A DNA stretch of 64,000 nt from the NCBI GenBank assembly GCA_945870025.1, contig CAMBQN010000003.1, positions 1 through 64,000 of the forward strand, written 5' to 3'. This DNA is from Akkermansia muciniphila (GTDB lineage: Bacteria; Verrucomicrobiota; Kiritimatiellia; RFP12; JAAYNR01). Shown one piece after another: positions 15,639-58,035 of the stretch (positions are counted from its first letter, which is position 1; every line of letters begins with the position of its first letter). The notes below the pieces were generated by a model. The model worked only from the letters and a program-made list of their open reading frames with translations. It was not told the DNA's origin and searched no databases. The translations under genes and the position numbers were made by a program.

Positions 15639-15651
15639 CAAAAGCCCCCTG

Positions 15652-35160: not shown

Positions 35161-35208
35161 GAAAGGATGGGGAGTAGTTTCGCACCAAAGCCTGGCGATT
35201 GTCCAATA

Positions 35209-35267
35209 CAATATTGTACACGTTTGGAGATGATTTCCCGTGGTAAGCTCAAGCGTGTACATTATTG
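35209..35267. promoter_or_regulatory. Operator-like dyad in the ketosynthase promoter
   Basis: Arms CAATATTGTACACG (35209-35222) and CGTGTACATTATTG (35254-35267) are reverse complements at 13 of 14 positions and are separated by 31 bases. The left arm overlaps a perfect 10-bp palindrome ACAATATTGT. It lies 49-107 bases upstream of the ketosynthase-like start, the position expected for operator pairs. AT-rich sequence in the arms may also include the -10 element. Confidence 0.45.
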
Positions 35268-35292
35268 AACACCGCGCGTCTCGTTCTCATTA

Positions 35293-35391
35293 TGGCATCC
35301 GCTATCGGAATCCAAATCGGGATCGGGACCGAAATCGATGAAAAATCGATGAAATCGGCCCCGATAGCGATTTCGACGGTACGGATGCGCT
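35293..35391. repeat. Degenerate hairpin element E upstream of the FadL gene
   Basis: GCATCCG near the left end matches the complement of CGGATGC at the right end. Between them are ATCGGGATCGGGACCG-like words and AATCGATGAAAAATCGATG. It resembles a diverged GGGGTC/GGTATC hairpin (elements A-C). It lies directly upstream of the sigma-54 promoter, so it could overlap enhancer sites. Confidence 0.45.
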
Positions 35392-35426
35392 CATATAGAG
35401 AATTGCTGCCCACCCGCAGACGCCGG

Positions 35427-35442
35427 TGGCACGAATGGTGCT
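35427..35442 (+). promoter_or_regulatory. Sigma-54 (-24/-12) promoter of the FadL-type gene
   Basis: The sequence TGGCACGAATGGTGCT matches the sigma-54 consensus TGGCACG-N4-TTGCW at 11 of 12 defined positions, including the invariant GG and GC with correct spacing. It predicts a transcript start near 35453 and a 59-base leader before the ATG at 35512. It is unique among the intergenic regions I checked, and an NtrC-type activator is encoded in the adjacent divergent operon. Confidence 0.7.
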
Positions 35443-35511
35443 AAGCGTTCATGCGTCGGCAATCGGATTCAGAAGTTTTATAGCAAGCCAAGCGAATGGA
35501 GGATGACCTTA

Positions 35512-36747: not shown

Positions 36748-36823
36748 CCTCCAATCCGGAAACTGGCATGCTCGACCCTTCGAGATTTTGTTGCGTTCTT
36801 TTGGATATAATCAGGAGGCCCAC

Positions 36824-38011
36824 ATGAATCACGACGAACCTGTTCAGAATGATGATGCGCGTCCGACCATTCTCGTGATTGACGACGAGCTCGGACCGCG
36901 CGAGAGCCTGCGCTTCCTGCTCAAGGACGCTTACCACGTGTGGTGCGCGGATTCGGTCGAACGCGGTCTGGCTCTCTTGCGCCAACACACGCCGGATACC
37001 GTGATCATGGACATCCGCATGCCCGGCTGCAACGGAATCGAAGGGCTCCGCGAAATCCGCAAGCTGGATTCCGATCTAGCCGTGATCCTGCTCACCGGCT
37101 TCGCAGCCCTCGGCACGGCGCAGGAAGCAATCCGCCACGAGGCGAACGACTACATGGAGAAACCCTTTGACGCGGCGGAAATGCGCCGTGCGGTTCAGCG
37201 CCATGTCGAACAGACCCGGCTGCGCCGCAAACGCGACAAGCTTCTGAGTGATGCGGACGCATTGGAGCGGCGCATCCGCGAACTCGAGGGCAAGGGCTGG
37301 CTGGCCGAATTGGGGCAGGTCTCCGCTGAGTTTGTCCATGACCTGCGTAACACCCTCACCGTGGCCAGCGGGTCCTCAAGCCTGCTGCGGATGGAGTTCG
37401 AAGGTTTGCCGCAACAGCAGGCCGACGCGCAGCCGGAGACCGGCCACTATCTGGACAAGCTGGAGAATTCGATGAAGCAGTGCGTCGACATGCTCGACTC
37501 GTGGCAGCGCCTGATCCGCCAGACCCCCCAGCAGCAGACACCGTTTCCTTTTCACGAGTTCGTCGGCGCCTGTGTCGAAAACGCCCGACCCGCCGCAGAC
37601 GCCGCCCATGCCAAGATTGCGTGCGAGACTTCGGGATGCGACACCCCCATCATCGGCGACCGCGTGCAACTTGCGCGCGTGCTGGCCAATCTCATCTTTA
37701 ATGCGATCCACGCCCTGCCGCCCGACCACGGGCTGATCCGCGTCCGCTCGGAAATCCTCGACACCTCCGTCCGCGTCAGCGTGGCGGACAACGGATGCGG
37801 TATTTCCGAGCAGAACCTGCAGCACATCTTCACGGCGAACTTCACCACCCGCCACGCCCTGGGCGGCATGGGGCTGGGCTTGTTCATCGCACAAAAGGTC
37901 GCCCAAGCGCACAACGGCACGCTAACCGTCGAAAGCGCCGTCAACCGGGGGACGACGTTCACCCTGGTTCTCCCGCGTGCCGCGCAGGTCAAGGACGACG
38001 GCGCGGCCTGA
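36824..38011 (+). CDS. Receiver domain - histidine kinase fusion
   Basis: A 395-aa soluble protein whose receiver domain comes first (residues 12-130; IDDELGPRE, VIMDIRMPG, EKPFD), then a coiled linker, then a kinase core with H-box-like FVHDLRNTLTVAS near residue 187 and ATPase motifs NLIFNAIHAL, VADNGCGI and LGGMGLGLFIAQKV. It has no sensory or membrane domain, so it probably relays signals from another kinase. AGGAGG precedes the ATG at 36824. It is likely co-transcribed with the FadL gene. Its 3' end overlaps the convergent methyltransferase gene by 23 bases. Confidence 0.9.
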   Translation: MNHDEPVQNDDARPTILVIDDELGPRESLRFLLKDAYHVWCADSVERGLALLRQHTPDTVIMDIRMPGCNGIEGLREIRKLDSDLAVILLTGFAALGTAQEAIRHEANDYMEKPFDAAEMRRAVQRHVEQTRLRRKRDKLLSDADALERRIRELEGKGWLAELGQVSAEFVHDLRNTLTVASGSSSLLRMEFEGLPQQQADAQPETGHYLDKLENSMKQCVDMLDSWQRLIRQTPQQQTPFPFHEFVGACVENARPAADAAHAKIACETSGCDTPIIGDRVQLARVLANLIFNAIHALPPDHGLIRVRSEILDTSVRVSVADNGCGISEQNLQHIFTANFTTRHALGGMGLGLFIAQKVAQAHNGTLTVESAVNRGTTFTLVLPRAAQVKDDGAA

Positions 38012-43075: not shown

Positions 43076-43396
43076 CTATTCCCACACATAAGCGGCGGCG
43101 TCTTTGGGCGTCGGGATTTCGCCTTCCTTGCGCGGCGTGAACTGACGGAACGCGGGGACATACGGCGCTTCCTCCAGTTTAGGAGTCGGATTGGGGGCGG
43201 GCGGCGACAACGGCACGAACGGGTCATTGATGCGGATCGGCCGGTTGTCGTCTATCTCCACGCTGTCCGGGTTCAACAAGGTGGTTGGCGGGCGGCGCCG
43301 GTGGAAGATGCTTTTATAAAAAGCGGCTAGAAGAAAAAACATCCCCAGCACACCGGCGATAATGCTGACGTCTGAGAAGGGAATGGCTCCGATCAT
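43076..43396 (-). CDS. Small single-TM protein of the EPS-associated ATPase operon
   Basis: A 106-aa protein of unknown family. One hydrophobic helix (IIAGVLGMFFLLAAFY, residues 12-27) is followed by a basic stretch (HRRRP) and a Pro-rich cytoplasmic tail ending AAAYVWE. It overlaps the ExeA-like ATPase gene by ATGA, so it is likely a partner, perhaps anchoring the ATPase at the membrane. Function is inferred only from coupling. Confidence 0.7.
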   Translation of the reverse strand: MIGAIPFSDVSIIAGVLGMFFLLAAFYKSIFHRRRPPTTLLNPDSVEIDDNRPIRINDPFVPLSPPAPNPTPKLEEAPYVPAFRQFTPRKEGEIPTPKDAAAYVWE

Positions 43397-44259
43397 GGAG
43401 TTGCCTCCGGTGTGTCGGTTGTCTGTTGGGCGAATGCGGCCAGACCGGTGTCGTGCGAGGCCTGTTCGGCGATCTCGGGGTTGATTTGCGACGCTTGGGC
43501 GGCAAAGCCGAGCATCAAGGCGGTATCGCAGATGTTGTTGATGCTGCGGGGGATTCCCATGGAATAGCGGTAGATCGTGTCAAGCGCTTCGCGCGAGAAC
43601 GACCAGATATCGCCGCCGACGGCGCGCATGTGGTGTTGCACATACTCGGTGGTTTGTTCGGGTGAAAGCGGCGTGAGTTTCCAGTCGAGCTGGATGCGGC
43701 GGCGGAGGGATTCAAAGCCCTTGATGGATTCACGCAGTGCTTCGGTGCCGGCCAGAATGGTGGTAAAGAGGGGCGTTTCGGTACGGTTCCCCGTGGCGGG
43801 GATGCGGAGGTTGCTCAGGTAGTGAGCGAGATAAAACCCGTCGCCCGATGCCAGGAAATGGGCTTCATCGATCATCAGCAGGTGGCGTGAGAGGTTGCGG
43901 CTGTTGTTGGACTGGCAGTATGACTGCAGGAGCATGAGCGCCTCGGGCAGGGTCTGGACCGGATCTGCGATGCTCAGACTGCGGAGGATGTGGCGGGCCA
44001 TCGGCAGGGCGCCGTCCGGAATCGCGTCGATGCGGATCGTGGGAATCTTGATATTCTGGGCGTGTCGGAACAGTTGCTCGAGTGTGAGTGACTTGCCGAT
44101 GCCGTACGGGCCTGTGAGCATGCCGGCCATGTGTCCCTGGTCGACGAGGTAGAGAAGGCGTGCCAACCCCTCCTGATGCTGCTCGGTCAGGAACATCAGG
44201 CGGTCATTAACCACGTTGAGGAACGGCGCTTCGCGCAGATTCCAGTATTGTGTATACAT
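43393..44259 (-). CDS. ExeA/GspA-like AAA ATPase
   Basis: A 288-aa AAA+ ATPase with N-terminal YTQYWNLREAPFLNVVNDRLMF, typical of the ExeA/GspA and XrtA-associated ATPase group. Walker A is GPYGIGKS (about 51-58), Walker B LLMIDEAHFL, and sensor region TTILAGTEALRE. The C-terminal lid contains SMGIPRSINNICDTAL. It lacks the periplasmic peptidoglycan-binding half of ExeA. Relatives are found in exopolysaccharide/exosortase loci. It begins 6 bases after the KaiC-like gene and overlaps the small TM gene, forming a compact module divergent from the polysaccharide synthase genes. Confidence 0.85.
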   Translation of the reverse strand: MYTQYWNLREAPFLNVVNDRLMFLTEQHQEGLARLLYLVDQGHMAGMLTGPYGIGKSLTLEQLFRHAQNIKIPTIRIDAIPDGALPMARHILRSLSIADPVQTLPEALMLLQSYCQSNNSRNLSRHLLMIDEAHFLASGDGFYLAHYLSNLRIPATGNRTETPLFTTILAGTEALRESIKGFESLRRRIQLDWKLTPLSPEQTTEYVQHHMRAVGGDIWSFSREALDTIYRYSMGIPRSINNICDTALMLGFAAQASQINPEIAEQASHDTGLAAFAQQTTDTPEATP

Positions 44260-44265
44260 GGCGGG

Positions 44266-45102
44266 TTACCTTTGATCGGGCATTCGCACGACCGATGAGA
44301 ACGCGATTGGCTTTTTAGGGGAGGCCGGTGCCGCTGGCTTGGCCGGCGGCTGCGTCGAAGCCCGGTTGCCGACCGATGCCGCCGGGCCGGGGGGGGGTAC
44401 CGGGGAAGAGGTCTGGTCCGCCGGGAGGACAAACCCCTTGCCGCTGTGGATTGCGAACGGCATCGGTGTTGACAGGTTCTGAATTTCCCCGAGATACTTG
44501 GAAACGCGCATGACCCGGTCGGCCTGGTTGGTATGGTCGAGGGTGATCGAGACGGGGCAGAGATCGTCGAGTTTGTTTTTCAACAGAAAAGCGGCGTTGG
44601 AGACCGGCTTGGGGAGGGTCAGCAGAACCGTGGCGCCGATCCGGTCGAGGGCATGGACAAACGAGTAGAGGTGTTGGACGAGACGCGAGATCGGTTGGAT
44701 TGCCAGCCAGGGAAGAACGGTGTCGAGAACCACACGCCGGATCGATTGCGACTCGATTGTTTCCTGCAGTTCCTCGAAGGCCTGCGGGGGGAGCAGGATA
44801 TTGTGGCTGGAGGCATTCTCGGTGATCAACGAGGCGTATTCCAGCAGCACAAGCTGTCCGGATGCGACGGCGTCGGCGAAGGGCATGCCGAAGCTCTCCG
44901 AGACAATCAGCGCATCCGCCGCGCGGTAGCCCGACAGCAGCAAGGCCCGGTCACCTTCGACAAGCGCCTGATGGATAAAGTGCAGACCGAGGATGGACTT
45001 GCCGCTTCCGGCTCGTCCGCAACACAAGACTTGCCGGTTGCGGTAAACGCCACCGAACACGTCATCGAACAACGGTATGCCCAACCGGGTTTTATCAATC
45101 AC
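44266..45102 (-). CDS. KaiC/RecA-like ATPase
   Basis: A P-loop ATPase of the RecA/KaiC superfamily, about 278 aa. Near the N-terminus is GIPLFDDVFGGVYRNRQVLCCGRAGSGKSILGLHFIHQAL with Walker A GRAGSGKS; the Walker B-like strand is IRRVVLDTVLPWL. The C-terminal 60 residues are Pro/Ala-rich linker. The start is unclear because a tandem CAAACCTCATG repeat straddles it. GTG at 45102 with TGAGG upstream is favoured, and TTG at 45117 is the ORF-track choice. Located between a receiver gene and an ExeA-like ATPase gene, it may be a switch or targeting ATPase for the polysaccharide machine. Confidence 0.8.
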   Translation of the reverse strand: MIDKTRLGIPLFDDVFGGVYRNRQVLCCGRAGSGKSILGLHFIHQALVEGDRALLLSGYRAADALIVSESFGMPFADAVASGQLVLLEYASLITENASSHNILLPPQAFEELQETIESQSIRRVVLDTVLPWLAIQPISRLVQHLYSFVHALDRIGATVLLTLPKPVSNAAFLLKNKLDDLCPVSITLDHTNQADRVMRVSKYLGEIQNLSTPMPFAIHSGKGFVLPADQTSSPVPPPGPAASVGNRASTQPPAKPAAPASPKKPIAFSSVVRMPDQR

Positions 45103-45120
45103 GCAAACCTCATGCAAACC

Positions 45121-45513
45121 TCATGCAACGCTTCCGAACGTACGGGCTTCAGTTTCACAAAACGCCTTTTTAAGAATGCTGCGGATGAAGGCCAACTCGA
45201 AGGGTTTGGACAGAAAGGTAGTGATGCCGCAGGCGGTCGCGCACTCGCTCCACGCCTGTGAGTGGTTGCCGGAGATCAGCACGACCGGACGGGTGCCGGC
45301 TGTCTGAGCGAGTTGACGGATCCACTCCTCGGCCGACGGGGAATCGGGGAGGAGGATGTCGGCGATGACAAGCTGGCAGTCGGGTCTGGCGAGCTTTTCA
45401 ATGCCTTCGGCGCTCGTTGCCGCAGTCACGGTTTCGTGACCCAGCCGCTGTATGAGCGCCGTCAGATAATCGCGAATGCCGGGTTCATCATCAATAATCA
45501 AAACGGTTCCCAT
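45121..45513 (-). CDS. Single-domain response regulator
   Basis: A 130-aa stand-alone receiver: VLIIDDEPGIRDY at the N-terminus (acidic pocket), phospho-acceptor in LVIADILLPD, Thr/Ser switch in VVLISGNH and Lys in TFLSKPFE. No output domain is present, so it must act by protein contact, plausibly with the KaiC-like ATPase encoded directly after it. It is divergent from the GT2 gene and separated from it by about 160 bases. Confidence 0.85.
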   Translation of the reverse strand: MGTVLIIDDEPGIRDYLTALIQRLGHETVTAATSAEGIEKLARPDCQLVIADILLPDSPSAEEWIRQLAQTAGTRPVVLISGNHSQAWSECATACGITTFLSKPFELAFIRSILKKAFCETEARTFGSVA

Positions 45514-45674: not shown

Positions 45675-47165
45675 ATGCAACCCAACGAAGCGAATAAAGC
45701 GAATACAACGTGGATATCGGACCGGCGTGTAGGCGGCAGACGGTGTCGGTGCCCTCCGTGCGCGCTCTCCGTGTATGTGGTTGACACGCCGGCCCCGGTG
45801 ACATGCCCCTATTGTCAGACGAGCTTGACAGTCGAGGAGGTGGGCAGGCCGCTGGCCGCCGAATCGCCGGTGCCGACGGCGGACGAGGTGCGCGCGCGGT
45901 TGACGAACCTGTACCATCAGCCGCCCAAGCTGGCCGTCGTTCTGATCAGTCTTGTGGCCGTGTTTCTGCTGGCGGCGGCGGTTTTCCTGCAGATTCGGAA
46001 CGCCGAGAACTACTGGTATCAGCCGCTGGTCAGCATTTACTCGATGCTGGCGGGGATCTTTGTCGTGTCGCGGTTTATCATCGCCGCCTTCTACGTGCCG
46101 CCGCAGGATGTCGGCTACGAGCCGACGATCACCGTGCTGATCCCCTGCATGAACGAGGAGGCGGTGATCCGGCAGACGATCGAGCGGATTTTCTCCTCGG
46201 GCTATCCCTCTGGCAAGTTGGAGGTCGTGTGTGTCAACGACGGGTCCAACGACGGCACCCTTAAGGAGATGCTGGATGCCCAGACGCGGCACCCGAATCT
46301 GGTGGTCGTTGACTTCGAGAAGAACCGCGGGTTGTGCCATGCGTGGGCGGTGTCGACGCTGATCGCCCGCGGGGAATTCATGGTGTGCGTCGATTCCGAC
46401 ACCTTTATTTTTCCGGGATCGCTGCGCAAGCTGGTTCAGGCGTTCGTGGATCCCTCCGTCGGCGGCGTTTCGGGGCACTGCGATGTGGAGAACGCGGGAA
46501 CCAACCTGCTCACGCAGATGCAGGATGTCCGCTATTACTTCTCCTACAAGATCATGAAGGCGGCCGAGAGCGTGTTTGGGGCGGTGAGCTGTCTGCCCGG
46601 CTGTTTCTCGGCCTATCGGCGGGTGTGCGTGTTGCACGTGCTGGATCCGTGGTTGAACGCCACGGTCTGGGGGATGCACGGCAATTATGCGGATGACCGG
46701 TCGCTGACGAACAAGATCCTGAAGGATTTCAAGATCATTTACGACGACGAAGCGCTGGCGACCACGATTGCGCCCGACAATTGGGGGCAGTACACGCGTC
46801 AGCAGTTGCGCTGGGTGCGTTCGTACTTGCGAGAGATCTGGGGCACGGGCAAATACATATGGCGCAAGCATCCGGTGCCGGCCCTGTCGTGGTACGCGAT
46901 GATGTGGATGCCCCTCGTGGAGCCGGTTGTCATGATCCAGGCGCTGGTGTTGGGCCCGATTCTGGCGGGCACGGTGACGGCGTCATACATGATCGGCGTG
47001 CTGGCCATCACGCTGGTGTGGTCGTTGCACTTCTGGGCGCAAACGGGGCGGCGCTGGTGGTGGGGGGGCATCGTCTTCACCCTCTCCTACATTTTGTTTT
47101 ACAGTTGGCAAATCTACTGGGCGTTTCTCACGCTCAGAGGAAAAAAGTGGGGGACGCGCGGATGA
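45675..47165 (+). CDS. Processive family 2 glycosyltransferase (PgaC/NodC/hyaluronan synthase-like) with Cys-rich N-terminus
   Basis: Inner-membrane polysaccharide synthase of 496 aa. After an N-terminal Cys-rich segment (RRCRCPPC and TCPYCQ, like a zinc ribbon, residues 20-45) come two TM helices (about 84-105 and 115-140), the GT-A domain (ITVLIPCMNEEAVI, VCVNDGSNDGT, CVDSDTFIFPG, CLPGCFSAYRR, DDRSLTN and the processivity motif QQLRWVRS) and C-terminal TM helices. It probably polymerises and exports a hexosamine polymer such as a GlcNAc chain; linkage and sugar are inferred from the neighbouring Pga-like genes. A start at 45636 is possible. It overlaps the next gene by ATGA. Confidence 0.85.
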   Translation: MQPNEANKANTTWISDRRVGGRRCRCPPCALSVYVVDTPAPVTCPYCQTSLTVEEVGRPLAAESPVPTADEVRARLTNLYHQPPKLAVVLISLVAVFLLAAAVFLQIRNAENYWYQPLVSIYSMLAGIFVVSRFIIAAFYVPPQDVGYEPTITVLIPCMNEEAVIRQTIERIFSSGYPSGKLEVVCVNDGSNDGTLKEMLDAQTRHPNLVVVDFEKNRGLCHAWAVSTLIARGEFMVCVDSDTFIFPGSLRKLVQAFVDPSVGGVSGHCDVENAGTNLLTQMQDVRYYFSYKIMKAAESVFGAVSCLPGCFSAYRRVCVLHVLDPWLNATVWGMHGNYADDRSLTNKILKDFKIIYDDEALATTIAPDNWGQYTRQQLRWVRSYLREIWGTGKYIWRKHPVPALSWYAMMWMPLVEPVVMIQALVLGPILAGTVTASYMIGVLAITLVWSLHFWAQTGRRWWWGGIVFTLSYILFYSWQIYWAFLTLRGKKWGTRG

Positions 47166-50100
47166 ACACACCGGAAACGAATACATCGGAACCGGGCAGG
47201 TCGGCGGCGCCCGTGCAACAGGCTGAGGGCGCCCGTGCAACAGGCTGGCGGCGCCCGGCCCCGATGTCGAAGGATTCCAACACGCGGGCGTGGCTGATCT
47301 TCCTCGCCGTCGTGTGCCTAGGCGCGGCACTGTGGGCGCCTCTGCGCGTGTTTTATTACCAGCATCGCTACCAGCCCATCGTGGACGCCCGGCCCCGAGA
47401 CGCGGCGTGTTTCGTGGCAGTCGCGTATCCGGGCGTTTCCGAGGACCCCCCTGCAGGCTCGCAGGACATCACGCCGGCCGCATTCGAAGCGCAGATCAAA
47501 ATCCTCCGCGACCGCGGCTACACCCCGATTGAACTGAAAGACGTGCAGGCGTTCTACGACGCGGGAAAGCCGTTGCCGCGCAAGGCAATCCTGACGACGT
47601 TCTCCCAGACGCGCAAGACCTCCTATTTCGAGGTTCGGCAATTGCTGCGCGTCCTCCGCTGGAAGGCGGTCATGGGGGTCTGCACATCGCCGATCCACGC
47701 CCGCGACCCGCAGTCGCTTCTCTGGCCCTATCTGCGGGATATGCTCAATCCGGGTCCCTGGGAACTGGCGGGCGAGTCTCAGAATGGGTATCATTTCGTG
47801 CCCGCGTTCTCGGACGGCAGTACGGGGCCGTTTTTCTCGACCCCCCAATGGCTGCCAGAATCCAATCGGCTTGAATACCCCGAGGAGTTTCGGGCGCGGA
47901 TCCGGGGTGACCATGAGGCCTTTCTCTCCGAATTTGCGCGCGAGACCCAGCAGAAGCCGCTGGCGTTCTTCTTCCCGTACGGCGACTACGGTCAATTTGA
48001 CGAGCGTGCCCAGTTCGTCAGGTTGAGCAACCTGTATCAGGTGGGTGAGAAGTATCCGCTGGGCTTTACGCTTGGCAATCTGGCCTTGAACACCCGGTTG
48101 ACCGACCGTCGCCGCCTGAACCGCCTGCTGGTCGATCCGCAGTGGACAGCCGAAGAGCTGGCCAACCGGCTTGATGCGTTCTGGCCCATGGAGATGACGA
48201 TCGATACCCGCCTGCATGTCTTTTCGCGCGAATCGGTGATCCGCGAATGGGGCGGGCTGAAACTCCTCGACCAAGGGTTTTCCCTGTATGCGATTCCGTC
48301 CGAAAACCCGGTGTACGATGAGCGTCTGGATGAGCGGAAGCGGACGGCGACAAGCGGATCGCGCGTCTGGCTCGCCGGAAGCGATACGTTCATGAACGGT
48401 CATTTCGTCGTGCGCTTCCATTTGGCGCACGGCCGGTTTGGCGTATACCTCCGCGCCGTTCCGGGGCATGAGCATCTTTATTTCCTGGTGGACGAAAACG
48501 GACAGGTGGGCGTGCGCCAAAAGCTGCCGGATCTGGATGAAGTCACGCTGGCATCGGAAGACGCCCCGATCGAGCAGGACACCAACCACGAGCTGGTTAT
48601 CACGCTCAAGGGCAACCTCCTGTACGCGCGCCTGGACGACAAATCCCTGTTTGACGGGCCCGTGCTGCTGCGCGAGACCCCGCGCCCTGGAATGCTGGGT
48701 TTGAGCGTCTGGGAACGGATCCCCGGTGTTGCGGCGGCCGACGTAATTGACGCGCGCATCCTCGCGCGCCGGGAGGCGATCGTGAACTGGACGCCCCATA
48801 CGGCGCGGGACGTCAGCTACCTGACCCGCTGGCTGAGCGAGCACTGTTTCCGCTTCTCGATCCTGTCGCCACCCTGGATCGACATCTTCGAGGGTTCGCC
48901 CCAGAAGTTTCCGATTTGGGATCAGGAGGCCCTCGATCTGCTGGCGCGCACCAATCAAACACGGATTTATCCGTATATCCAAATCCGGCAGTCTTCCGTG
49001 CTGATGCCGGCCTCGGCCGATGCGATCCTCGACGATCTGGTGATGCTCACGGGTGTGTCGGGTCTGTTCATCGACGCGACCGCCGTTCGGACTGAAGAGG
49101 TGAATGCGCTGGTAAACTGGCTGTTACGGTTGCAGGAGGGGATGGAAAAAGCGGGCTTCCGGTTGGCGATCAAACTGCCGCAGACGATCGAGTCGCTGCC
49201 GTCCGCCGGCAACATGCTCAAGCTGTTTCCCAACGCGCTGCTGGTCGGCGATTTCAAACAACCCCCATTCGGATTGACGGCCGACCGTGTGGTGAGCATC
49301 GACTCGGTCTCGCCGCCGACGAGCGATGAAACCCTGGCGCTCTACTACCAAATCTCAAATCTGGCGACGAACTACGAGGGCGTGTCCGCCGAAGTGACGC
49401 ACGAGGCGTTGCGCCAGAGTGGGTTTGATGCATTTGCCGCCGGTGATTATGAAGGCGCGATCGCGATCTGGGGCCAATGGTTTAAAGCGGACCCGCGGAG
49501 CGCCGAAGCGATCGGACTGATCGGCGACGCCCAGATGCGGATGAACGCCCTGGATCTGGCACTCCAGTCATACACGCGCAGTCTGGAACTCAACCCCGGC
49601 GAAATGAATCTGGTGGTGCGGCGGGCGCGGCTTTTGGAGACGATGAAGCGGATGGACGAGTCCGTGGCCGCGCTGAACATGTATTCCCGAACGTTTCCCG
49701 ACTCGCCGGCCATCATTGTCGCGCAGGCCCACTGGATGTCCCGCAACGGGCAACGCGATCGGGCGCGCGAGTTGATGCGCGATCTGGTCAAGCGGTTTCC
49801 CGACGAGATCGAATCCCGGCTGGTCTTGCAGACGTTGCTCGATCAGCCGGCGGAACGGTACGCCAACACCCGCGAACTGCTCGATATGTGCGAGGGCCAG
49901 GAAACCCAGCACTTCGCGTTCGGCAAGGAACTGGGCGCCGTCGAGTTGCTGGCGATTCCCGAGGCGAGCGTCTTCTTCAACTTCATCCGCCGCACGGCGG
50001 CCCACTCGCCCAACAAGCAGACGCGCGAGTTGTACCGGAGTTTTCTGCCGCTTACCAACAGCGTCGTGGAAGATTTCTCAACCGGAAAACTCTCCGATAA

Positions 50101-51424
50101 CTGGTTCTATCTCGGCGGCCTGCGGCCCCTCGACCGCGGGCGTTACGAACTGAAGGCGTCGACCGACCTGGCCGAGGCGTTTCTCCGACTCAAGAAATCG
50201 GAACTGCTGCGGGACGGGTTTCTGGAGGTGCAGTTGGACGAATCGGTGGGTTATTTCTGGATCTATGCCAGGCGCAGCACCCGGTCGATGGTCCGTTTCG
50301 GTTTTGACAATGAGGGCTTTATTCACATCCAAAGCTGGTTGAACGGGGCTTTGACCAGCTATGAAAACCGGCCGTGGATGCGGCCGCCGGGGATGCTTTC
50401 CCTGCGGTTGGAGGTGCACGGCGACGGGGCCATGGGTTATATCAACGATCAACCGACTTTTGCGACGCCGCTGATCATCCCGCCCGAGGTCGCTTACGGC
50501 TGGTGGAGCATCGCGCCGTTCTCGCCCGATTACGGGGTGGCGCGCGCCCGCATTTCGAGCATTCACTGCGGGCCGCTGGCACCGGTTCTGGTGATGCTGC
50601 CACCTCTGAACGACGCCCGGATGAACGACGCGCTGGACTGGGTCCGGCCCCGGGTGCGGAACATCTCGGCCTTGTGCCCGGTCACCTTCCTGCAAAACCC
50701 CGACGGCACGATCGGTTCCGTCCCGCAGACCGCATTCTCGCTGACGCGGATGTTCGCCACCTACCACCGCCTCCGCCTGATGCCGGTGCTGGACATGTCC
50801 TATTTTTCGGACATCGAACCGGCCAGGATCATTGAGCTGATCCAGAAACATCAGCTTGCCGGCCTGATCGTCCGCATCCGCATTCTCCCCGACGAAGCGT
50901 GGTTCAAGAAACTGGAGCGCGAGATGGAACGGACCACGGCCGATCTGATTGTGATCCGGAACGAGCGCACCTTCTGGCCCATACCGGGCACGGGCGAGGC
51001 GGAACTGCCCCTGGATGGCGAACGCAAGCGTCTGAAGAGGCTGCCAACCTCGCTGGTGCGGGAGATCCCGCGCGGCAGTCTACTGCTGCCCCCCATCGCG
51101 GCAACCTGGACGATTCGGGCGCAACCGTATCAGGACTGGATGACCGAGACCAACCGCATCGACGTGGTCGGGGCGGAACTGCGGCTCTTTGTCGTCCCGA
51201 ACTCGATCATCGGCACCAACACCGCACAGGTGGTCGCGGCCGCGCACAAAGCGTTGCAGGAGGAGGCGCTGGCCGACGCCCGGCAGCCGGTCCGGGAGGA
51301 GGATATCAAGAATGACACAACACCGACGATCCCGCAACGAATCGAAGTGCCGTCCGCCGTCCCGGAAGCGGCTGCGGAAGCCGGACTGCGGTTGAATGAT
51401 CCTAAAAGGAGCAGTGAGCAGTGA
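47162..51424 (+). CDS. PgaB-like multidomain protein with degenerate deacetylase, glycosidase-like, LamG and TPR domains
   Basis: A 1420-aa envelope protein anchored by one N-terminal TM helix (about 42-64). It has a NodB/PgaB-type deacetylase-like domain (about 75-300) in which the catalytic TFDDG motif reads TTFSQTR, so both Asp are lost, while FFFPYGDYG remains. A LamG-like sandwich follows (about 390-520), then a PgaB-type glycosidase-like barrel (about 545-750; GVSGLFIDATAV with a candidate Asp), TPR repeats (about 755-910), a second LamG-like domain (about 965-1135) and another barrel-like region (1140-1350). It probably guides or trims the nascent polymer across the periplasm. It is coupled to the GT2 by ATGA. 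Confidence 0.75.
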   Translation: MNTPETNTSEPGRSAAPVQQAEGARATGWRRPAPMSKDSNTRAWLIFLAVVCLGAALWAPLRVFYYQHRYQPIVDARPRDAACFVAVAYPGVSEDPPAGSQDITPAAFEAQIKILRDRGYTPIELKDVQAFYDAGKPLPRKAILTTFSQTRKTSYFEVRQLLRVLRWKAVMGVCTSPIHARDPQSLLWPYLRDMLNPGPWELAGESQNGYHFVPAFSDGSTGPFFSTPQWLPESNRLEYPEEFRARIRGDHEAFLSEFARETQQKPLAFFFPYGDYGQFDERAQFVRLSNLYQVGEKYPLGFTLGNLALNTRLTDRRRLNRLLVDPQWTAEELANRLDAFWPMEMTIDTRLHVFSRESVIREWGGLKLLDQGFSLYAIPSENPVYDERLDERKRTATSGSRVWLAGSDTFMNGHFVVRFHLAHGRFGVYLRAVPGHEHLYFLVDENGQVGVRQKLPDLDEVTLASEDAPIEQDTNHELVITLKGNLLYARLDDKSLFDGPVLLRETPRPGMLGLSVWERIPGVAAADVIDARILARREAIVNWTPHTARDVSYLTRWLSEHCFRFSILSPPWIDIFEGSPQKFPIWDQEALDLLARTNQTRIYPYIQIRQSSVLMPASADAILDDLVMLTGVSGLFIDATAVRTEEVNALVNWLLRLQEGMEKAGFRLAIKLPQTIESLPSAGNMLKLFPNALLVGDFKQPPFGLTADRVVSIDSVSPPTSDETLALYYQISNLATNYEGVSAEVTHEALRQSGFDAFAAGDYEGAIAIWGQWFKADPRSAEAIGLIGDAQMRMNALDLALQSYTRSLELNPGEMNLVVRRARLLETMKRMDESVAALNMYSRTFPDSPAIIVAQAHWMSRNGQRDRARELMRDLVKRFPDEIESRLVLQTLLDQPAERYANTRELLDMCEGQETQHFAFGKELGAVELLAIPEASVFFNFIRRTAAHSPNKQTRELYRSFLPLTNSVVEDFSTGKLSDNWFYLGGLRPLDRGRYELKASTDLAEAFLRLKKSELLRDGFLEVQLDESVGYFWIYARRSTRSMVRFGFDNEGFIHIQSWLNGALTSYENRPWMRPPGMLSLRLEVHGDGAMGYINDQPTFATPLIIPPEVAYGWWSIAPFSPDYGVARARISSIHCGPLAPVLVMLPPLNDARMNDALDWVRPRVRNISALCPVTFLQNPDGTIGSVPQTAFSLTRMFATYHRLRLMPVLDMSYFSDIEPARIIELIQKHQLAGLIVRIRILPDEAWFKKLEREMERTTADLIVIRNERTFWPIPGTGEAELPLDGERKRLKRLPTSLVREIPRGSLLLPPIAATWTIRAQPYQDWMTETNRIDVVGAELRLFVVPNSIIGTNTAQVVAAAHKALQEEALADARQPVREEDIKNDTTPTIPQRIEVPSAVPEAAAEAGLRLNDPKRSSEQ

Positions 51425-51571
51425 ACCGTGAACAGTGGGCTTCGCACCAAATGGTTATGCACATGTCATTGGCCTTCAACCGATCACCGACCACCGATCA
51501 CTGTTCACTGTTCACTGTTCACCGATCACTGTTCACCGATCACCGATCACCGATAACGGCTCCTTTTAGGT
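51401..51571. repeat. Large hairpin built of 7-bp repeats between PgaB-like and MBOAT genes
   Basis: The outer arms CCTAAAAGGAGC (51401-51412) and GCTCCTTTTAGG (51559-51570) are perfect complements. Inside, left heptamers (GCAGTGA, GCAGTGA, ACCGTGA) face right heptamers (TTCACTG, TTCACTG, TTCACCG, ATCACTG, ATCACCG). The left arm encodes the last residues of the PgaB-like protein. It could attenuate transcription within the EPS operon. Confidence 0.7.
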
Positions 51572-51595
51572 TTTAAGGACGAACGAGGACAAACC

Positions 51596-53071
51596 ATGCT
51601 GTTTCCCACAACCGTTTTTGCCGTTTTCTTTCTGATTGTCTGTTACACCCACTGGGCGCTGACCGAGCGGCCCAAGACCCGCAAAGTCTTTTTGTTGGCG
51701 GCCAGCCTCTTTTTTTACGGTTATTGGAGTTGGACGTTTGCGTTGATGCTGCTGGCCTCGGCGTGCATCAACCACGGGATGGCGGTTATGATTGACGCAT
51801 TGCAGGATCACAGGCTCCGGCGCCGGGTGATGATCGGCACGGTCGGTTTCAATCTCGGCATTCTGGCCCTCTTCAAGTACACCGGATTTCTGTACAAGCA
51901 GTTGTTCACGCCGCTGGCCGTGCCGTTGTGCCACTGGCTGGGGGCGACGGAGCATCTGGTCGAGATGCAGGAGCGCGTGCTGCCGTTCATTGACCAGATC
52001 GTCCTTCCCGTCGGGATCTCGTTTTACACCTTTCAAGCGCTCAGCTACGTGGTCGACGTGTACTGGCGAAAGGTCGAGATCGCCCGCTCGACCCTTGATT
52101 TCGCCAATTATCTGGCGTTTTTTCCGCAACTGGTCGCCGGACCCATTGTCCGGGCCAGCGATCTGCTCCCCCAGATGGGGGTGTTCCCCGGCCGGGAGAC
52201 CGGGATCGACACGGGGCGCGCAGCAATCCTGATCTTGGGCGGGTTGTTCAAAAAAATGGTGGTGGCGAACTGGCTGGCCGAGAATCTGGCCGACCCGGTG
52301 TTTGCGCAGCCCGATGCCTTCGCGTCGGGAGCGGACATCCTGATCGGCATTTATGCGTATGCCATCCAAATCTATTGCGACTTTTCAGCCTACTCCGACA
52401 TTGCCATCGGGTGTGCGATCTTGATGGGATTCCATTTCCCAATCAACTTCAACGCGCCGTATTTCGGCGTGACCCTGCAGGATTTCTGGCGACGGTGGCA
52501 CATCTCCCTGTCGACCTGGTTGCGGGATTACCTGTACATTCCCCTGGGAGGCTCGCGGGCGGGTGCGAGCCGCACCTGGTGCAACCTGCTGCTCACGTTC
52601 GTGCTGGGGGGTCTGTGGCACGGAGCCGCCTGGACGTTTGTGCTGTGGGGGGCGTTTCATGGCGGTTATCTGGCGCTGGAGCGCGTCGTGCGCCGCGCGT
52701 GCGGACTCTCCGAAAAGCCGGCGGAACACCCGCACCGGGTCTTGGCGTTCCTGGGGCGGATCTGGATCTTCCATGTCGTGTGCTTTTCGTGGATCCTGTT
52801 CCGATCACCGGACCTGACGGCGTGCGGCGAGATGGTGCGGGGCCTGGGCCGGTGGGAGGTCGCGCCCACCCTCTGGACGGCGCGCGCACTGCTGGTGCTG
52901 CTTGTGGGGTTCTCTCTCCAAGGCCTGGACGGCGACCGCATGCAAGGCGTGTGGCGGCGCTTCAACGCCCTGCCCGTCATCGCGCAGGGCGCGCTTGCCG
53001 CCGTTGCGCTGACGATCATCCTGGCTCTGGGGCCGGTCGGCGTGGCCCCGTTTATCTATTTTCAGTTCTAG
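51596..53071 (+). CDS. MBOAT family O-acyltransferase (AlgI-like)
   Basis: An inner-membrane acyl-transfer protein of 491 aa with about 11 hydrophobic helices. Signature segments are LPVGISFYTFQALSYVVDVY, FPQLVAGPIVRASDLLPQM, DFWRRWHISLSTWLRDYLYIPLGGSR and VLGGLWHGAAWTFVLWGAFHG with the catalytic His. In alginate, cellulose and D-alanyl-teichoic acid systems such proteins move an acyl group across the membrane to a periplasmic SGNH-type acceptor. Here the SGNH protein is two genes downstream, so polymer O-acetylation is likely. Confidence 0.9.
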   Translation: MLFPTTVFAVFFLIVCYTHWALTERPKTRKVFLLAASLFFYGYWSWTFALMLLASACINHGMAVMIDALQDHRLRRRVMIGTVGFNLGILALFKYTGFLYKQLFTPLAVPLCHWLGATEHLVEMQERVLPFIDQIVLPVGISFYTFQALSYVVDVYWRKVEIARSTLDFANYLAFFPQLVAGPIVRASDLLPQMGVFPGRETGIDTGRAAILILGGLFKKMVVANWLAENLADPVFAQPDAFASGADILIGIYAYAIQIYCDFSAYSDIAIGCAILMGFHFPINFNAPYFGVTLQDFWRRWHISLSTWLRDYLYIPLGGSRAGASRTWCNLLLTFVLGGLWHGAAWTFVLWGAFHGGYLALERVVRRACGLSEKPAEHPHRVLAFLGRIWIFHVVCFSWILFRSPDLTACGEMVRGLGRWEVAPTLWTARALLVLLVGFSLQGLDGDRMQGVWRRFNALPVIAQGALAAVALTIILALGPVGVAPFIYFQF

Positions 53072-53092
53072 GCGAAACAGGAAGGTGTGCGT

Positions 53093-53389
53093 ATGGATGT
53101 GCAGATTGAAGAAAAGGAAGGAGCCGGTGCGTCTCCCCGCCATTCGTCCGTCCCCCGGGCGTTGTTTTTTGTAGGTGTTTTCTATGGCGTTATGCTAATC
53201 TTGAACGGCGTTTCGATGCGGGAGAGTGCCGCATTGCTCGAATACGGCTGGCAGCGGGATGCACTGTGTCGGCTGAACCGTCCGTGCGAGGCGGTCTCAC
53301 GGAGCACGCGCGCGTTCCTTTTTCGCGAGGAATTGCGAAAAACGGTTGGTCGGTGGTTGAACACGGCTCACGCGAAAGAAGGAGAATAA
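53093..53389 (+). CDS. Small membrane protein of the O-acetylation module
   Basis: A 98-aa protein with no known family. A hydrophobic helix, ALFFVGVFYGVMLILNGVSM (about 22-41), is flanked by a polar N-terminus and a charged periplasmic C-terminus with two Cys (LCRLNRPC). It lies between the MBOAT and SGNH genes (21 and 2 bases away), so it is probably a partner that links them, comparable in position to accessory subunits of other acylation systems. ATG at 53093 is chosen; the ORF track uses GTG at 53087. Confidence 0.65.
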   Translation: MDVQIEEKEGAGASPRHSSVPRALFFVGVFYGVMLILNGVSMRESAALLEYGWQRDALCRLNRPCEAVSRSTRAFLFREELRKTVGRWLNTAHAKEGE

Positions 53390-53391
53390 GC

Positions 53392-54117
53392 ATGCAGACA
53401 GTCCGGATACTGGGGCTTTGGGCCATTCTGGCGGCATCCGGGGCGGGGGCGCAGCAGGCGGTGACGCCCGCCATGGCCGGCGCTGCGGAGCGAACGGCGC
53501 GCGCGCCGGTGCTGATGGTTGGCGATTCGATGATGCGACTGCTGTCCGTTGCGTTTGAAAAGGAATTCCGCAAGCAGGGCATCGAGGCGGCCTCATTCGC
53601 CTCGCTGGGGTCGGGATTGGTTCGGCTCGACGCCTTTGACTGGTATGCCAAGATCCGCGAGCTGATGGACACGCACAAGCCGGGCACGGTGATTGTGGTG
53701 TTGGGGACCAATGACGACCAGCCCCTGCTGGATGAGAATGACCAGACGATTAACAAAGGCACGGACGCGTGGAATCGGGAATATTCAAAGCGGTTGGGAA
53801 AAATCATGGACACTTTCCTCGAACACGGGGCGCTGCGAGTGATCTGGCTGTTGCAGCCCGACATGAAGCAGGCGACTCACCAGCGCTATGCCGACCGTCT
53901 CAATGCGCTGATCACCGCTGAGGCCGGCACGCGACCGGCGGTCCTCTTGTTTGATAGCCGCGCCGTTCTCTGCCGCAGGCCCGGTGCGCCGTATTCGGCG
54001 ACCTTGGTCGGGAAGGACGGGCAAATGATCCAGGTGCGCGACTCGGACGGTGTCCATCTCTCGCGCGACGGCGCCGAACGCCTGGCGGCGGCCGTTGTCG
54101 CAGCCCACTGGAAGTGA
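53392..54117 (+). CDS. SGNH/GDSL hydrolase (DUF459-like), putative polymer O-acetyltransferase
   Basis: A 241-aa secreted protein: signal sequence ILGLWAILAASGAGA, then GDSMMRLL with the nucleophile Ser (block I), VIVVLGTNDDQP (block III, GTND with Asn) and DSDGVHLSRDGAERLA with the Asp-x2-His pair. All catalytic residues of the fold are present. With the MBOAT gene it matches the AlgI/AlgX-J arrangement, where the SGNH protein moves acetyl groups to the chain in the periplasm; an esterase role is the alternative. AAGGAG precedes the ATG at 53392; the ORF-track start at 53266 is not supported. Confidence 0.85.
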   Translation: MQTVRILGLWAILAASGAGAQQAVTPAMAGAAERTARAPVLMVGDSMMRLLSVAFEKEFRKQGIEAASFASLGSGLVRLDAFDWYAKIRELMDTHKPGTVIVVLGTNDDQPLLDENDQTINKGTDAWNREYSKRLGKIMDTFLEHGALRVIWLLQPDMKQATHQRYADRLNALITAEAGTRPAVLLFDSRAVLCRRPGAPYSATLVGKDGQMIQVRDSDGVHLSRDGAERLAAAVVAAHWK

Positions 54118-54160
54118 GGGGTTACCGCGCGTTTTCAGGCAAGGATCATCTGGGGGCACA

Positions 54161-57100
54161 ATGGAACAAATAATTCTGCTTGCAGGAAGTCGGCGTGAGT
54201 GCGTCGTTTCCGGTCGCGCGATTCGGTGGCTGTGCTTGCTGTTCTGCCTGGGCGCGCGCGTGCTCGTGGCCAACGCGCCCTTCCTCGATCCGGTTATCGC
54301 ACCGGTCACGCGCGCGCTGATTGATGCGGCGATTAAAGAGGCCCAGACGTCGGGGGACGTCGACGTGTCGACCCCCCGCGCGCTTTTATACAAGGGCCTC
54401 ATGCTGTTTCAGAAGGAGGACTATCTCGCGGCCATCCCGTATCTCGAGGAAGCGCTGCGCCAGGATCCCACGTTGATGGGGGCCTGGGAGGCGCTGGGCT
54501 GGGCCTATTGGCGGACCGATCAGAAGGAAAAAGCGGTGCGGCATTTCGAGGCGTTCCGCCGCCTGATGCCGAATCAGGCGCTTCCATACAGTATGCTGGC
54601 TCAATACGGCATTCTGATACAGGACTGGAAGATGGCCGACGCGAACTTTCGCAAGGCGCTGGAGATCAATCCCGATCAGTATGACCTGCGAAACTGGTAT
54701 GCGCAGAATATGATGCGGATGGGCAGGGACTTGGAGGCCGAGCAGCTTTTGAAGCAGTTGATACAGGAAGATCCTGATCGCGTGGACATCATGATCACGC
54801 TGGCGCAATTGCTTTATTTTCAGCAACGATACGAAGACTCTGCCGAGTTGTGGACGCGTGTGTTAAAGCAACTCCCCGATAACGCCAATTTTATGGTCGA
54901 ACTGGCGCGGATCCAGATGGTTCTGGGCAATCTGGAAGAGGCGGATCAGCTTTGTATCGCTGCCCTGGAACGCGAACCCGATTTGTATCCGGCGCTCATG
55001 CTGCGGGCGGATCTTGCCGATATCGGCGACATGGCCGGAGCCAGCGTGGAACGGCTGGAGGCTGTGATCCGGGCCACTCGCGACGCGCCCATGCGCGCCA
55101 AATTGCGCGAACGGTTGGCCACACGTTGCCATGCGTTCAACGACCGGCAACCGGGTGCGTTCCCCCCCTCTTACATCCTCGACCAATTGGCCCAGGCGGT
55201 CCAGGAAGATCCGAAAAACATGTATTTGGCGCTCACCTATGCCGAGTATTGCCTGATTTTCAAGCAGTATCACGAGGCGCGCAAGTGGGCGCGGCTCGTG
55301 CTAGAGGCGTTCAACCGCCACAACGTGCGCGCCAAAGAGGTCTATTTTGAATGCGCACTGGGCGAGGGTCTTTACGACGAGGCGGAACAAATCCTGGATG
55401 ATCTGTATTCTGCCTATGACCCGAGCGACCCGATGCGAAAATATCACCAGGCGCGTGTGGACCTCTTCCGTGGGCGTTATGTGGAGGCGATGGCGTGCCT
55501 CGACGAGATGGAGGCACAAGCCGAGAAGGGGACGGTGCTCACCCTGTTGTACCACGGCCTCACCGAGAGCGACTGGCTGCCGCGCACGTCGGTGCGGCGG
55601 CTTTATGAGCACCTCTTCGCCCTCAAGCAGGCCGGGTTCACCTTTGTTTCTCCGACGGACATCCCTGCCCTTATCGGCGCGAAGAACGGCGTGTCGCCGG
55701 CCGAAGACGCGGCGCGGGATGAAGCGGATGACGCGAATGACGCGCGTGAGGCGGTGCCGCTGCCCGCGCGGCTCATCGACTCCCTCCGCTATTCATTTAC
55801 CGGTGAGCGGAAGTTCAAGCGCGTGTCGCCCCAGAAACAGATGCGCGAGAAATACCGGTCGCCGGGCAAGAACGTGGCCGTCACATTTGACGACGGTCTC
55901 CGCAGTTCGTTCGACCTGGGCACGCCGGTCGCCGAGGACTTGGGGGTTCCGTTCGGCATGTTTGTGATCACGTGGCGGGCGGACTATGATCCCTCCGTTA
56001 CGTCGTGGGATGAGATGCGGAAATATGCGGCTTCGGGCTCGTGGGTGATCGGCAGCCACTTGCATGACGCGCATGCGGATGTCGCCGTCTCGTCCGACAC
56101 CAACCACCTGGCCCGGGCCCTTCCCAACCGCATCTGGATGCCGGCCAAGAATCGGTTGGAATCGATGAACGAATGGGACAGGCGGATGCGTCAGAATTTC
56201 CGGATCAGCCGCAAAATCATCGACGAGAAGTTGGGGGACGCGGCCAGCACGCTGGCGATGGTCGCCTATCCGTACGGCGACATCGGGCAGGAAGGGACGT
56301 GCAACCTGTCGACGTTGCGCAACCCCGTGCAGACCCTATTGGCAGAAGCCGCCCGCAATTATCAGTTGGGGTTTGCCCTCGACCGCAACGGCTATACGAC
56401 TACCGGGGACAGCAGCCTGCTTGTGCGGCGGTATGAGCCGGCGTGGTACGACGAGGGGGCGGATGTCGTGCGCCATGCCTATCAGAACCATCCGTTGTTC
56501 ATGGCGCGCGCGCTGCGCATCGAGTTGGCCAAGGTGATGGGCAAGCCGCATGTCGCCGAGGCGATGCTGAAACTGCTCCGCCGCGACGGCTACCCCGAAG
56601 ATCTGATCCGCAAGATGGACTTCGCCAACACGGCCCATTTCCGAAATCGCTCGCAACGCGCCGAGAAGGCGTTGTACGGTTCGGCTGCCTTCCCCTCACC
56701 GGTTTCGGCCGGTTCCGTTCAGAGTTCCGTTCAGAGTTCCTCGGAGGGCGTTTACACGGTCGCTGCGGACGGCACGCGCTCCACGCCTGCTGATGACGGC
56801 TCGTGGTACAAGCCGTCTGACGTGTCCGTCGGCGCGCATGTTTACAATTCGCAGGCGAATAACGAATATGAAGTAACCCGGGAGGGCGTGCGCGGCGGGT
56901 TCAATCTCAACCCGCGCACCTGGCTGGGCGCCGAGTATACCCATAGCACGATCACGCAGCAGCCGAGGCCGATCCGCACGCTGACAGACCCCCTCGATCT
57001 GACTCTGGACTACACCTGGGAGAACAGCGCGATCAACCCCGATATCCTCATCGGCGCCAAAGCCAGCCGGGAAGACATTCGCCTGCGATCTTCTCACCGC

Positions 57101-57835
57101 TTTGATTCCGGCTCGACGCTGGCGGCTTCGATCGGTTTGGCGCGCTTCCGCCTGGAGCAGAACGAGGAGTGGGAGTATTCGGTGTATTATGGGGATTGGG
57201 AAGCGAGAGAGACCGATTCGAGCAAGCTGATTGGCGATCTGACGTATAGCTGGTTCCCTTCCGAAAAAGTGGCCATGAGCGCGTATTTTGCGCATGATAT
57301 TCTGCCGGTGGCCTATCGATTGGTGCCGTCCGACACCTTGGGGCTGAATGCAGGCTGGAAGGTGTCCGACACGTGGGACTCCCACTTGCGCAGCCAGTAT
57401 TCGTTGTATGGGGATGACAACGCGATGTACCAGTTTGCGGTCGATTCGTTCTGGGATGTCGCGCCCGAACTCAATCTCTCGTTCGGATTGGAATACGCGA
57501 TGGCCTCGACCAGCGATTACAACCCGTACTATTGGACGCCTTATTGGGACGAACGGGTGAGCGCGATCTTCCGGTACGCTCAGGCGTGGCCCGGTTATGC
57601 GTTCAACATTGACATGATCTTCGGACATCAGCGCGAAGGCGCGCGTCCGCAAGAGTACAATGAATGGGGCGTCTTCTACGGTGACGCGACCGAATGGGAG
57701 AACGCCTGGGGCATGGCATCGACTTACCGTCAGCAGCTCAAGAAACACTGGGACCTGATGCTCGACGTCCGGACGATGTTCCTGCGTAGCTACGCAGACC
57801 ACAGCTTCTACCTAAGCCTCGATTATACGTTCTGA
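54161..57835 (+). CDS. PgaA-like TPR/beta-barrel export porin with inserted active polysaccharide deacetylase
   Basis: A 1224-aa outer-membrane protein. A signal sequence (WLCLLFCLGARVLVANA) is followed by about ten TPR-like repeats (about 77-456; ALLYKGLMLFQKEDYLAAIPYLEEAL). A polysaccharide deacetylase domain (about 465-760) comes next with intact motifs: VAVTFDDGLRSSFD (near 575), GSHLHDAH (metal His pair, near 631) and VAYPYGDIGQEG (near 703). A C-terminal beta-barrel (about 863-1224) ends FYLSLDYTF with terminal Phe. E. coli PgaA has TPR and barrel only, with the deacetylase in PgaB, so here the activity sits on the exporter. The barrel part has the alternating aromatic pattern of PgaA-type porins. 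It is last in the operon. Confidence 0.8.
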   Translation: MEQIILLAGSRRECVVSGRAIRWLCLLFCLGARVLVANAPFLDPVIAPVTRALIDAAIKEAQTSGDVDVSTPRALLYKGLMLFQKEDYLAAIPYLEEALRQDPTLMGAWEALGWAYWRTDQKEKAVRHFEAFRRLMPNQALPYSMLAQYGILIQDWKMADANFRKALEINPDQYDLRNWYAQNMMRMGRDLEAEQLLKQLIQEDPDRVDIMITLAQLLYFQQRYEDSAELWTRVLKQLPDNANFMVELARIQMVLGNLEEADQLCIAALEREPDLYPALMLRADLADIGDMAGASVERLEAVIRATRDAPMRAKLRERLATRCHAFNDRQPGAFPPSYILDQLAQAVQEDPKNMYLALTYAEYCLIFKQYHEARKWARLVLEAFNRHNVRAKEVYFECALGEGLYDEAEQILDDLYSAYDPSDPMRKYHQARVDLFRGRYVEAMACLDEMEAQAEKGTVLTLLYHGLTESDWLPRTSVRRLYEHLFALKQAGFTFVSPTDIPALIGAKNGVSPAEDAARDEADDANDAREAVPLPARLIDSLRYSFTGERKFKRVSPQKQMREKYRSPGKNVAVTFDDGLRSSFDLGTPVAEDLGVPFGMFVITWRADYDPSVTSWDEMRKYAASGSWVIGSHLHDAHADVAVSSDTNHLARALPNRIWMPAKNRLESMNEWDRRMRQNFRISRKIIDEKLGDAASTLAMVAYPYGDIGQEGTCNLSTLRNPVQTLLAEAARNYQLGFALDRNGYTTTGDSSLLVRRYEPAWYDEGADVVRHAYQNHPLFMARALRIELAKVMGKPHVAEAMLKLLRRDGYPEDLIRKMDFANTAHFRNRSQRAEKALYGSAAFPSPVSAGSVQSSVQSSSEGVYTVAADGTRSTPADDGSWYKPSDVSVGAHVYNSQANNEYEVTREGVRGGFNLNPRTWLGAEYTHSTITQQPRPIRTLTDPLDLTLDYTWENSAINPDILIGAKASREDIRLRSSHRFDSGSTLAASIGLARFRLEQNEEWEYSVYYGDWEARETDSSKLIGDLTYSWFPSEKVAMSAYFAHDILPVAYRLVPSDTLGLNAGWKVSDTWDSHLRSQYSLYGDDNAMYQFAVDSFWDVAPELNLSFGLEYAMASTSDYNPYYWTPYWDERVSAIFRYAQAWPGYAFNIDMIFGHQREGARPQEYNEWGVFYGDATEWENAWGMASTYRQQLKKHWDLMLDVRTMFLRSYADHSFYLSLDYTF

Positions 57836-57930: not shown

Positions 57931-58035
57931 ATGCGGTTGGGCTGGAATACAATCACACAGCGGGCGGTGCGATTTTCGCGGGAGTGGTCTGACGAGACCC
58001 GCGAGGGGGCCGAGGCCAAAAGGAAGCGCCGATGA
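57931..58035 (+). pseudogene. N-terminal fragment of a class I DNA methyltransferase (type IIG/MmeI-like)
   Basis: A 34-codon frame, MRLGWNTITQRAVRFSREW followed by SDETREGAEAKRKRR, strongly resembles the first residues of large class I SAM-dependent DNA methyltransferases, which begin with a TWNEIRxRAxxFxREW-like helix and continue DExxEdAEAKsFWdeFF. Here the frame diverges after EAK and stops at a TGA that overlaps the start of the MFS gene. It is preceded by a good GAGGGG. It is presumably the stump of a deleted restriction-modification gene. Confidence 0.5.

Follow-up and report, generated by a model that had tools for sequence, protein, structure and literature searches.

A deacetylase-bearing porin and an O-acetylation module in a candidate exopolysaccharide locus of Kiritimatiellia

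Does an exopolysaccharide locus that resembles the Pga system of Escherichia coli also build and modify its polymer in the Pga way? The locus in question lies in a 64,000-nucleotide stretch of a Kiritimatiellia assembly (GCA_945870025.1, contig CAMBQN010000003.1), hereafter called the window. Open reading frame (ORF) calling and translation gave six genes at 45675-57835, all on the + strand, encoding a GT2 synthase, a PgaB-like protein, an MBOAT acyltransferase, a small membrane protein, an SGNH protein and a tetratricopeptide repeat (TPR)/porin protein. Their start positions are likely starts (Table 1), and the genes were assigned to families using Pfam and NCBIfam. A first reading from the sequence alone had described a co-directional Pga-like operon making a polymer both de-N-acetylated and O-acetylated. 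ORF calls, family matches and the gene order kept in relatives bear out the six-gene run. On balance, we favour a synthase-dependent exopolysaccharide system whose product would be an O-acetylated aminosugar polymer throughout the class and, in this genome, would lose N-acetyl groups at the exit channel.

This reading starts from the porin. Besides TPRs (profile match E=2e-4), Pfam and NCBIfam models detected inside it a polysaccharide deacetylase domain, the only PF01522 match in the assembly (81% complete). The sequence-only reading had named a PgaA-like porin and had left this domain out. The porin aligns with IcaB/PgaB deacetylases across VTFDDG and SHLHDAH. An AlphaFold2 (AF2) model based on 49 homologues (mean predicted local distance difference test score, pLDDT, 83.4) has, in its own numbering, TPR helices to residue ~420, an alpha/beta domain at 422-722 and 16 strands at 853-1187, ending with Phe; when no alignment was supplied, pLDDT was 37.8 and the prediction unusable. 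In a Foldseek search, the model retrieved the PgaB-type deacetylases 4u10 (TM score 0.78) and 3vus (0.75), and also BcsC. As modelled, the domain would combine a CE4 fold of the PgaB/IcaB type with the catalytic and metal-binding residues. The predicted TPR and 16-strand porin architecture is of the PgaA type; the porins of the PgaA and BcsC kind each have 16 strands (PMC9384988). A structure search of viral proteins gave mostly TPR matches.

Of 288 genomes and 113 genera of the class, 79 and 47, respectively, have the TPR-deacetylase-barrel protein. When 338 genomes from the phylum were sampled, all 30 fusion matches fell in the same class. No deacetylase-porin fusion was found in the literature searched, coverage of which was partial. 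The fusion offers a marker to find the locus in metagenomes. TPR-deacetylase genes also occur as three tandem copies within one locus (L077, L079, L088), and some short TPR-deacetylase copies (~800-890 residues) are devoid of a barrel.

The sequence-only reading had assigned de-N-acetylation to the PgaB-like protein. Judged by its active-site positions, this protein is a pseudo-enzyme class-wide, and the candidate for the activity is the domain inside the porin. Resemblance to PgaB (N-domain TIGR03938, E=1e-24) is limited to about the first 340 of 1420 residues; in profile comparison, E. coli PgaB residues 43-302 were aligned to the protein with 98.7%. The Asp-Asp-His-His (D-D-H-H) residues are intact in none of the 27 homologues readable at these sites. 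The equivalent of PgaB His55 is missing from all readable homologues, its position being occupied by E, A, G, D and others. The middle segment tested gave no match with the C-terminal GH153 hydrolase domain of PgaB (hhalign probability 0.3%). A hydrophobic segment at the N-terminus, without a conserved lipobox, suggests that the protein is anchored in the inner membrane. Full-length homologues occur within the same taxonomic order. In one relative, the PgaB-like gene is interrupted by an in-frame TAG (L030:10677-14885).

The state of the porin deacetylase varies among relatives. Within 56 porin-type proteins, D-D-H-H is kept in 15, the window protein included, D-D-H without the last His is found in 20 and the site is broken in 21. 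The His55 equivalent (H465) is present in all 15 D-D-H-H proteins, in 18/20 of those with the last His replaced and in 3/21 of the broken ones; the first and last of these classes differ with a Fisher p=3e-7, uncorrected for relatedness. H465 and D-D-H-H are therefore intact together in 15/56 proteins, the window porin among them. The deacetylase tree requires a minimum of six to seven switches between these states. They fit repeated loss, the direction of change being unreadable from an unrooted tree. In several relatives, the deacetylase-like domains of both the porin and the PgaB-like protein are broken, showing that the family as a whole cannot be credited with a doubly modified polymer.

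In contrast, the catalytic residues of the O-acetylation module are kept. Both enzymes are clearly recognized (MBOAT, E=1e-34; DUF459/SGNH, E=2e-45), and the SGNH protein is closest to PatB in the PDB and in NCBIfam. The MBOAT holds its catalytic His and the FxYxxF tail, shown to be an acyl-shuttle motif for PatA (PMC12148441), and the SGNH protein its Ser-Asn-Asp-His blocks. Across homologues, the His region and the FxYxxF tail of the MBOAT are each intact in 32/33, the exceptions being fragments at contig ends, and the SGNH catalytic blocks are intact in every aligned homologue. The small transmembrane (TM) protein forms a family with E values from 1e-37 to 1e-14 across sampled loci, adjoining the MBOAT and SGNH genes. 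The idea that it is a split-off PatB N-terminus found no support, as no homology to the N-terminus of the two PatB-type proteins tested was detectable.

Gene order was followed in 45 porin-bearing neighbourhoods, many of which end at contig ends. SGNH is present in 36 of them, where it adjoins the porin, the small protein in 34, MBOAT in 33, PgaB-like in 26 and GT2 in 24. As read from neighbourhood maps, all six genes are in order and co-directional in 14 loci from four families of the class; this recurrence in other families makes the run more than a chance arrangement. In other loci, the GT2/PgaB-like pair is convergent to MBOAT-small-SGNH-porin. This synteny, together with the invariant catalytic residues, strongly supports a link of the O-acetylation module to the exopolysaccharide export locus. 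Compared with the often decayed porin deacetylase, the residue pattern indicates a steady constraint on O-acetylation that de-N-acetylation does not share. Of the doubly modified polymer first proposed, the O-acetylation link stands; de-N-acetylation is plausible in this genome and does not extend to all of the family.

Which polymer the system makes depends on the synthase (GT2 family, E=6e-26). Its DSD, (A/G)DDRSLTN and QxxRW motifs are kept across the class and correspond to the DSD, (G/A/E)DDR-LT and QxxRW set of synthases of the NodC, hyaluronan synthase (HAS) and chitin-synthase type: NodC has GEDRHLT and a HAS-like enzyme GDDRHLTN, whereas PgaC has TEDIDISW. The synthase scored 152 bits with the NodC model, under its equivalog cut-off of 550, and 116 bits with the PgaC model, under the cut-off of 422 for a PgaC-type enzyme. 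In a tree that included NodC, HAS-like and PgaC rows the branches were very long, and the tree was set aside in favour of the motifs. A Paenibacillus relative is flanked by two polysaccharide deacetylases and a GH18 gene. Motifs and gene context together favour an N-acetylglucosamine (GlcNAc) polymer of the chitin/NodC or hyaluronan type over beta-1,6-linked poly-N-acetylglucosamine (PNAG). A beta-1,4 polymer would keep C6 free for the PatB-like enzyme. In two f6 relatives (L032:1107-3323 and L033:183-2327), the GT2 protein has an in-frame insert of ~180 residues near synthase residues 431-448, with a weak DUF6336 match.

A divergent true PNAG system with an added acetylation module would explain the PgaB-type domains, the PgaA-like TPR and 16-strand barrel, and the 26% identity of the synthase to PgaC. 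It is quite unlikely, given the ADDRSLTN motif, a score far under the PgaC cut-off and an undetected PgaB hydrolase domain; nor did a PgaD come to light in the cluster, although the genome was not specifically searched for one. As far as motifs and active sites tell, the cluster fails PNAG membership on the synthase and on PgaB activity. With NodC/hyaluronan/chitin-synthase motifs instead of those of PgaC and no PgaD in view, the name 'Pga' is misleading. The Pga-like description is weak overall, since the synthase motifs depart from it, a PgaB hydrolase domain is undetected and the barrel sequence shows no significant likeness to PgaA. A hyaluronan- or glycosaminoglycan-like copolymer from a HAS-type synthase draws on hyaluronan synthases being the top PDB sequence matches, and cultured Kiritimatiellae (Pontiella) do produce sulfated, hexosamine-containing glycosaminoglycan-like exopolymers (PMC7356697). 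However, NCBIfam favours NodC, the Pontiella paper indicates a different, sulfotransferase-bearing cluster, and UDP-glucose dehydrogenase was not noted in our cluster, the genome not having been searched for it. We hold this copolymer to be very unlikely.

The modifying enzymes admit other explanations as well. The porin deacetylase could be a structural relic here too, the polymer being O-acetylated and never de-N-acetylated. The sites broken or altered in 41/56 homologues, and the number of state changes on the tree, which points to a dispensable activity, speak for a relic. Its five tested residues are intact, however, in the window protein, in a same-family homologue and in two further members of the order, and the domain is the sole PF01522 detected; a relic therefore appears unlikely. 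It is highly improbable that MBOAT and SGNH form a pair of the PatAB type that O-acetylates peptidoglycan and merely happens to lie in an exopolysaccharide locus: the PatB resemblance and the failure to find a second MBOAT in the assembly would agree with it, but the MBOAT-small-SGNH set is found again next to the porin throughout the class, in a conserved neighbourhood without noted cell-wall genes. Several observations weigh against the system that we favour. One metal-binding His is replaced in 20 relatives and the site broken in 21, which makes deacetylation dispensable to the family. No domain has been assigned to the middle or to the C-terminal part of the PgaB-like protein. Neither sequence search nor hhalign gave a significant match of the barrel to PgaA, leaving a PgaA relationship of the barrel unsupported by sequence. 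A same-genus genome, 95% complete, contains neither large protein (PgaB-like, porin), showing that the locus is patchy, and at its level of completeness the present assembly could be missing further deacetylases or MBOATs.

The functional cluster extends to the left of the boundary first given for the six genes and reaches ~40566 on the - strand, through a divergent operon (Table 1). At least two of its receiver, KaiC-like, AAA_22 and GHL10 genes accompany the cluster in 17 loci, and f31 loci have the same divergent arrangement. GHL10 filling the hydrolase role of PgaB is a guess. A few kb further left, at 28013-38011, an NtrC-type regulator is accompanied by three histidine kinases that contain PAS/GAF or receiver domains; these are possible regulators. 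Within the six-gene run, the GT2 stop overlaps the start of the PgaB-like gene (ATGA).

Table 1. Features of the exopolysaccharide locus and of the divergent operon (window positions)
Feature	Position	Strand
GHL10 glycosyl-hydrolase-like protein, 839 aa	40566..43085	-
Small TM protein, proline-rich tail	43076..43396	-
ExeA-like AAA_22 ATPase, related to XrtA/PEP-CTERM ATPase TIGR03015, below cut-off	43393..44259	-
KaiC-like ATPase	44266..45117	-
Stand-alone response-regulator receiver, first gene of divergent operon	45121..45513	-
GT2 membrane synthase, 496 aa, Cys-rich N-terminal segment; motifs DSD, ADDRSLTN, QxxRW	45675..47165	+
1420-aa PgaB-like protein with TM segment at N-terminus, pseudo-deacetylase, globular regions, TPRs and another conserved region	47162..51424	+
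Pseudo-deacetylase region of PgaB-like protein	about 47399-48196	+
S148-Q149 codons, at position of PgaB catalytic D114-D115	47603..47608	+
Tandem repeat, period 14/28, ACCGATCACTGTTC units, in gap between PgaB-like gene and MBOAT	51479..51554	+
MBOAT acyltransferase, 491 aa, DltB/AlgI-type	51596..53071	+
FIYFQF at MBOAT C-terminus, fits FxYxxF acyl-shuttle motif	53051..53068	+
Small single-TM protein, conserved family of cluster	53093..53389	+
Periplasmic SGNH/DUF459 protein, PatB-like; catalytic blocks GDS, TND, DGVH intact	53392..54117	+
TPR - deacetylase - 16-strand beta-barrel fusion (porin), 1224 aa	54161..57835	+
PgaB/IcaB-type deacetylase domain within porin; H465, D577, D578, H633, H638 intact	55532..56434	+
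16 predicted beta strands, C-terminal Phe (outer-membrane barrel)	56825..57829	+

Read as a pathway, the NodC/HAS/chitin-synthase-type GT2 protein would polymerise and extrude an N-acetylhexosamine polymer. The PgaB-like protein, presumably anchored in the inner membrane, may bind or guide it as a catalytically dead scaffold, a role suggested by the loss of all its active-site residues. By analogy to PatAB, the MBOAT would use its C-terminal Tyr to relay acetyl groups to the PatB-like SGNH protein in the periplasm. The SGNH protein would O-acetylate the polymer, in fixed partnership with the small TM protein. Export would proceed through the TPR/barrel protein, where the deacetylase on the periplasmic arm could still strip N-acetyl groups at the exit in this genome. 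PgaA TPRs bind the deacetylase domain of PgaB and raise its activity (PMC9384988), which makes a TPR-deacetylase fusion mechanistically sensible. The divergent operon, with its receiver, two ATPases and GHL10, probably controls or assists secretion. More tentatively, the 11-gene divergent cluster as a whole might represent an undescribed class-wide secretion type for an O-acetylated, partly de-N-acetylated chitin-like polymer, with the jobs of PgaB shared out to an inactive scaffold, a deacetylase carried by the porin and a separate GHL10 hydrolase, and with secretion tied to the KaiC-like and ExeA-like ATPases.

Overall, we regard the cluster as a new variant of synthase-dependent exopolysaccharide export, in which a Pga/Pel/Bcs-type exporter is combined with an AlgI/PatAB-type acetylation module. 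It shares with E. coli PgaABCD the PgaB-type deacetylase fold, the TPR and 16-strand porin and a GT2 synthase; it differs in the deacetylase sitting in the porin, the dead PgaB-like protein with no detectable GH153 domain, the NodC/HAS-type synthase and the extra MBOAT/SGNH module, and no PgaD was seen in the cluster. PatA/PatB of peptidoglycan and AlgI/AlgJ/AlgX of alginate likewise have an MBOAT with FxYxxF and an SGNH/DUF459 protein with intact blocks, but here there is a separate small TM partner and the module is tied to an exopolysaccharide exporter. In the BcsZ-BcsC fusion of Zymomonas cellulose (PMC7112194), a modifying enzyme is also joined to an outer-membrane pore; the enzyme there is a hydrolase, whereas here it is a deacetylase placed between the TPRs and the barrel, present across the class and inactivated more than once. 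The combination of both modifications, first thought unusual, has a precedent in the staphylococcal IcaADBC system, whose PNAG is de-N-acetylated and for which O-succinylation by IcaC was proposed (PMC4432689). That system is Gram-positive and has no porin. The IcaC acyltransferase of staphylococci is not known to be an MBOAT/SGNH pair. XrtA/PEP-CTERM exopolysaccharide loci have a related ATPase (TIGR03015) and NtrC/PrsK-like regulators nearby, but the TIGR03015 and NtrC/PrsK-like matches here are all below curated cut-offs.

For a bacterial class of which very few members are in culture, the cluster offers a candidate exopolymer locus. It merges an exopolysaccharide enzyme and an export channel in one protein, of which nature provides a series of active and decayed forms. 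With this series it can be tested directly whether the deacetylase domain is important for the chemistry, for the export or as a gate in the structure.

Elsewhere in the window, a 1916-residue open frame at 9891-15641 (- strand), without Pfam or NCBIfam match, may not be a gene. Just downstream of the porin, at 58032-60590, a major facilitator superfamily (MFS) transporter is fused to HEAT repeats.
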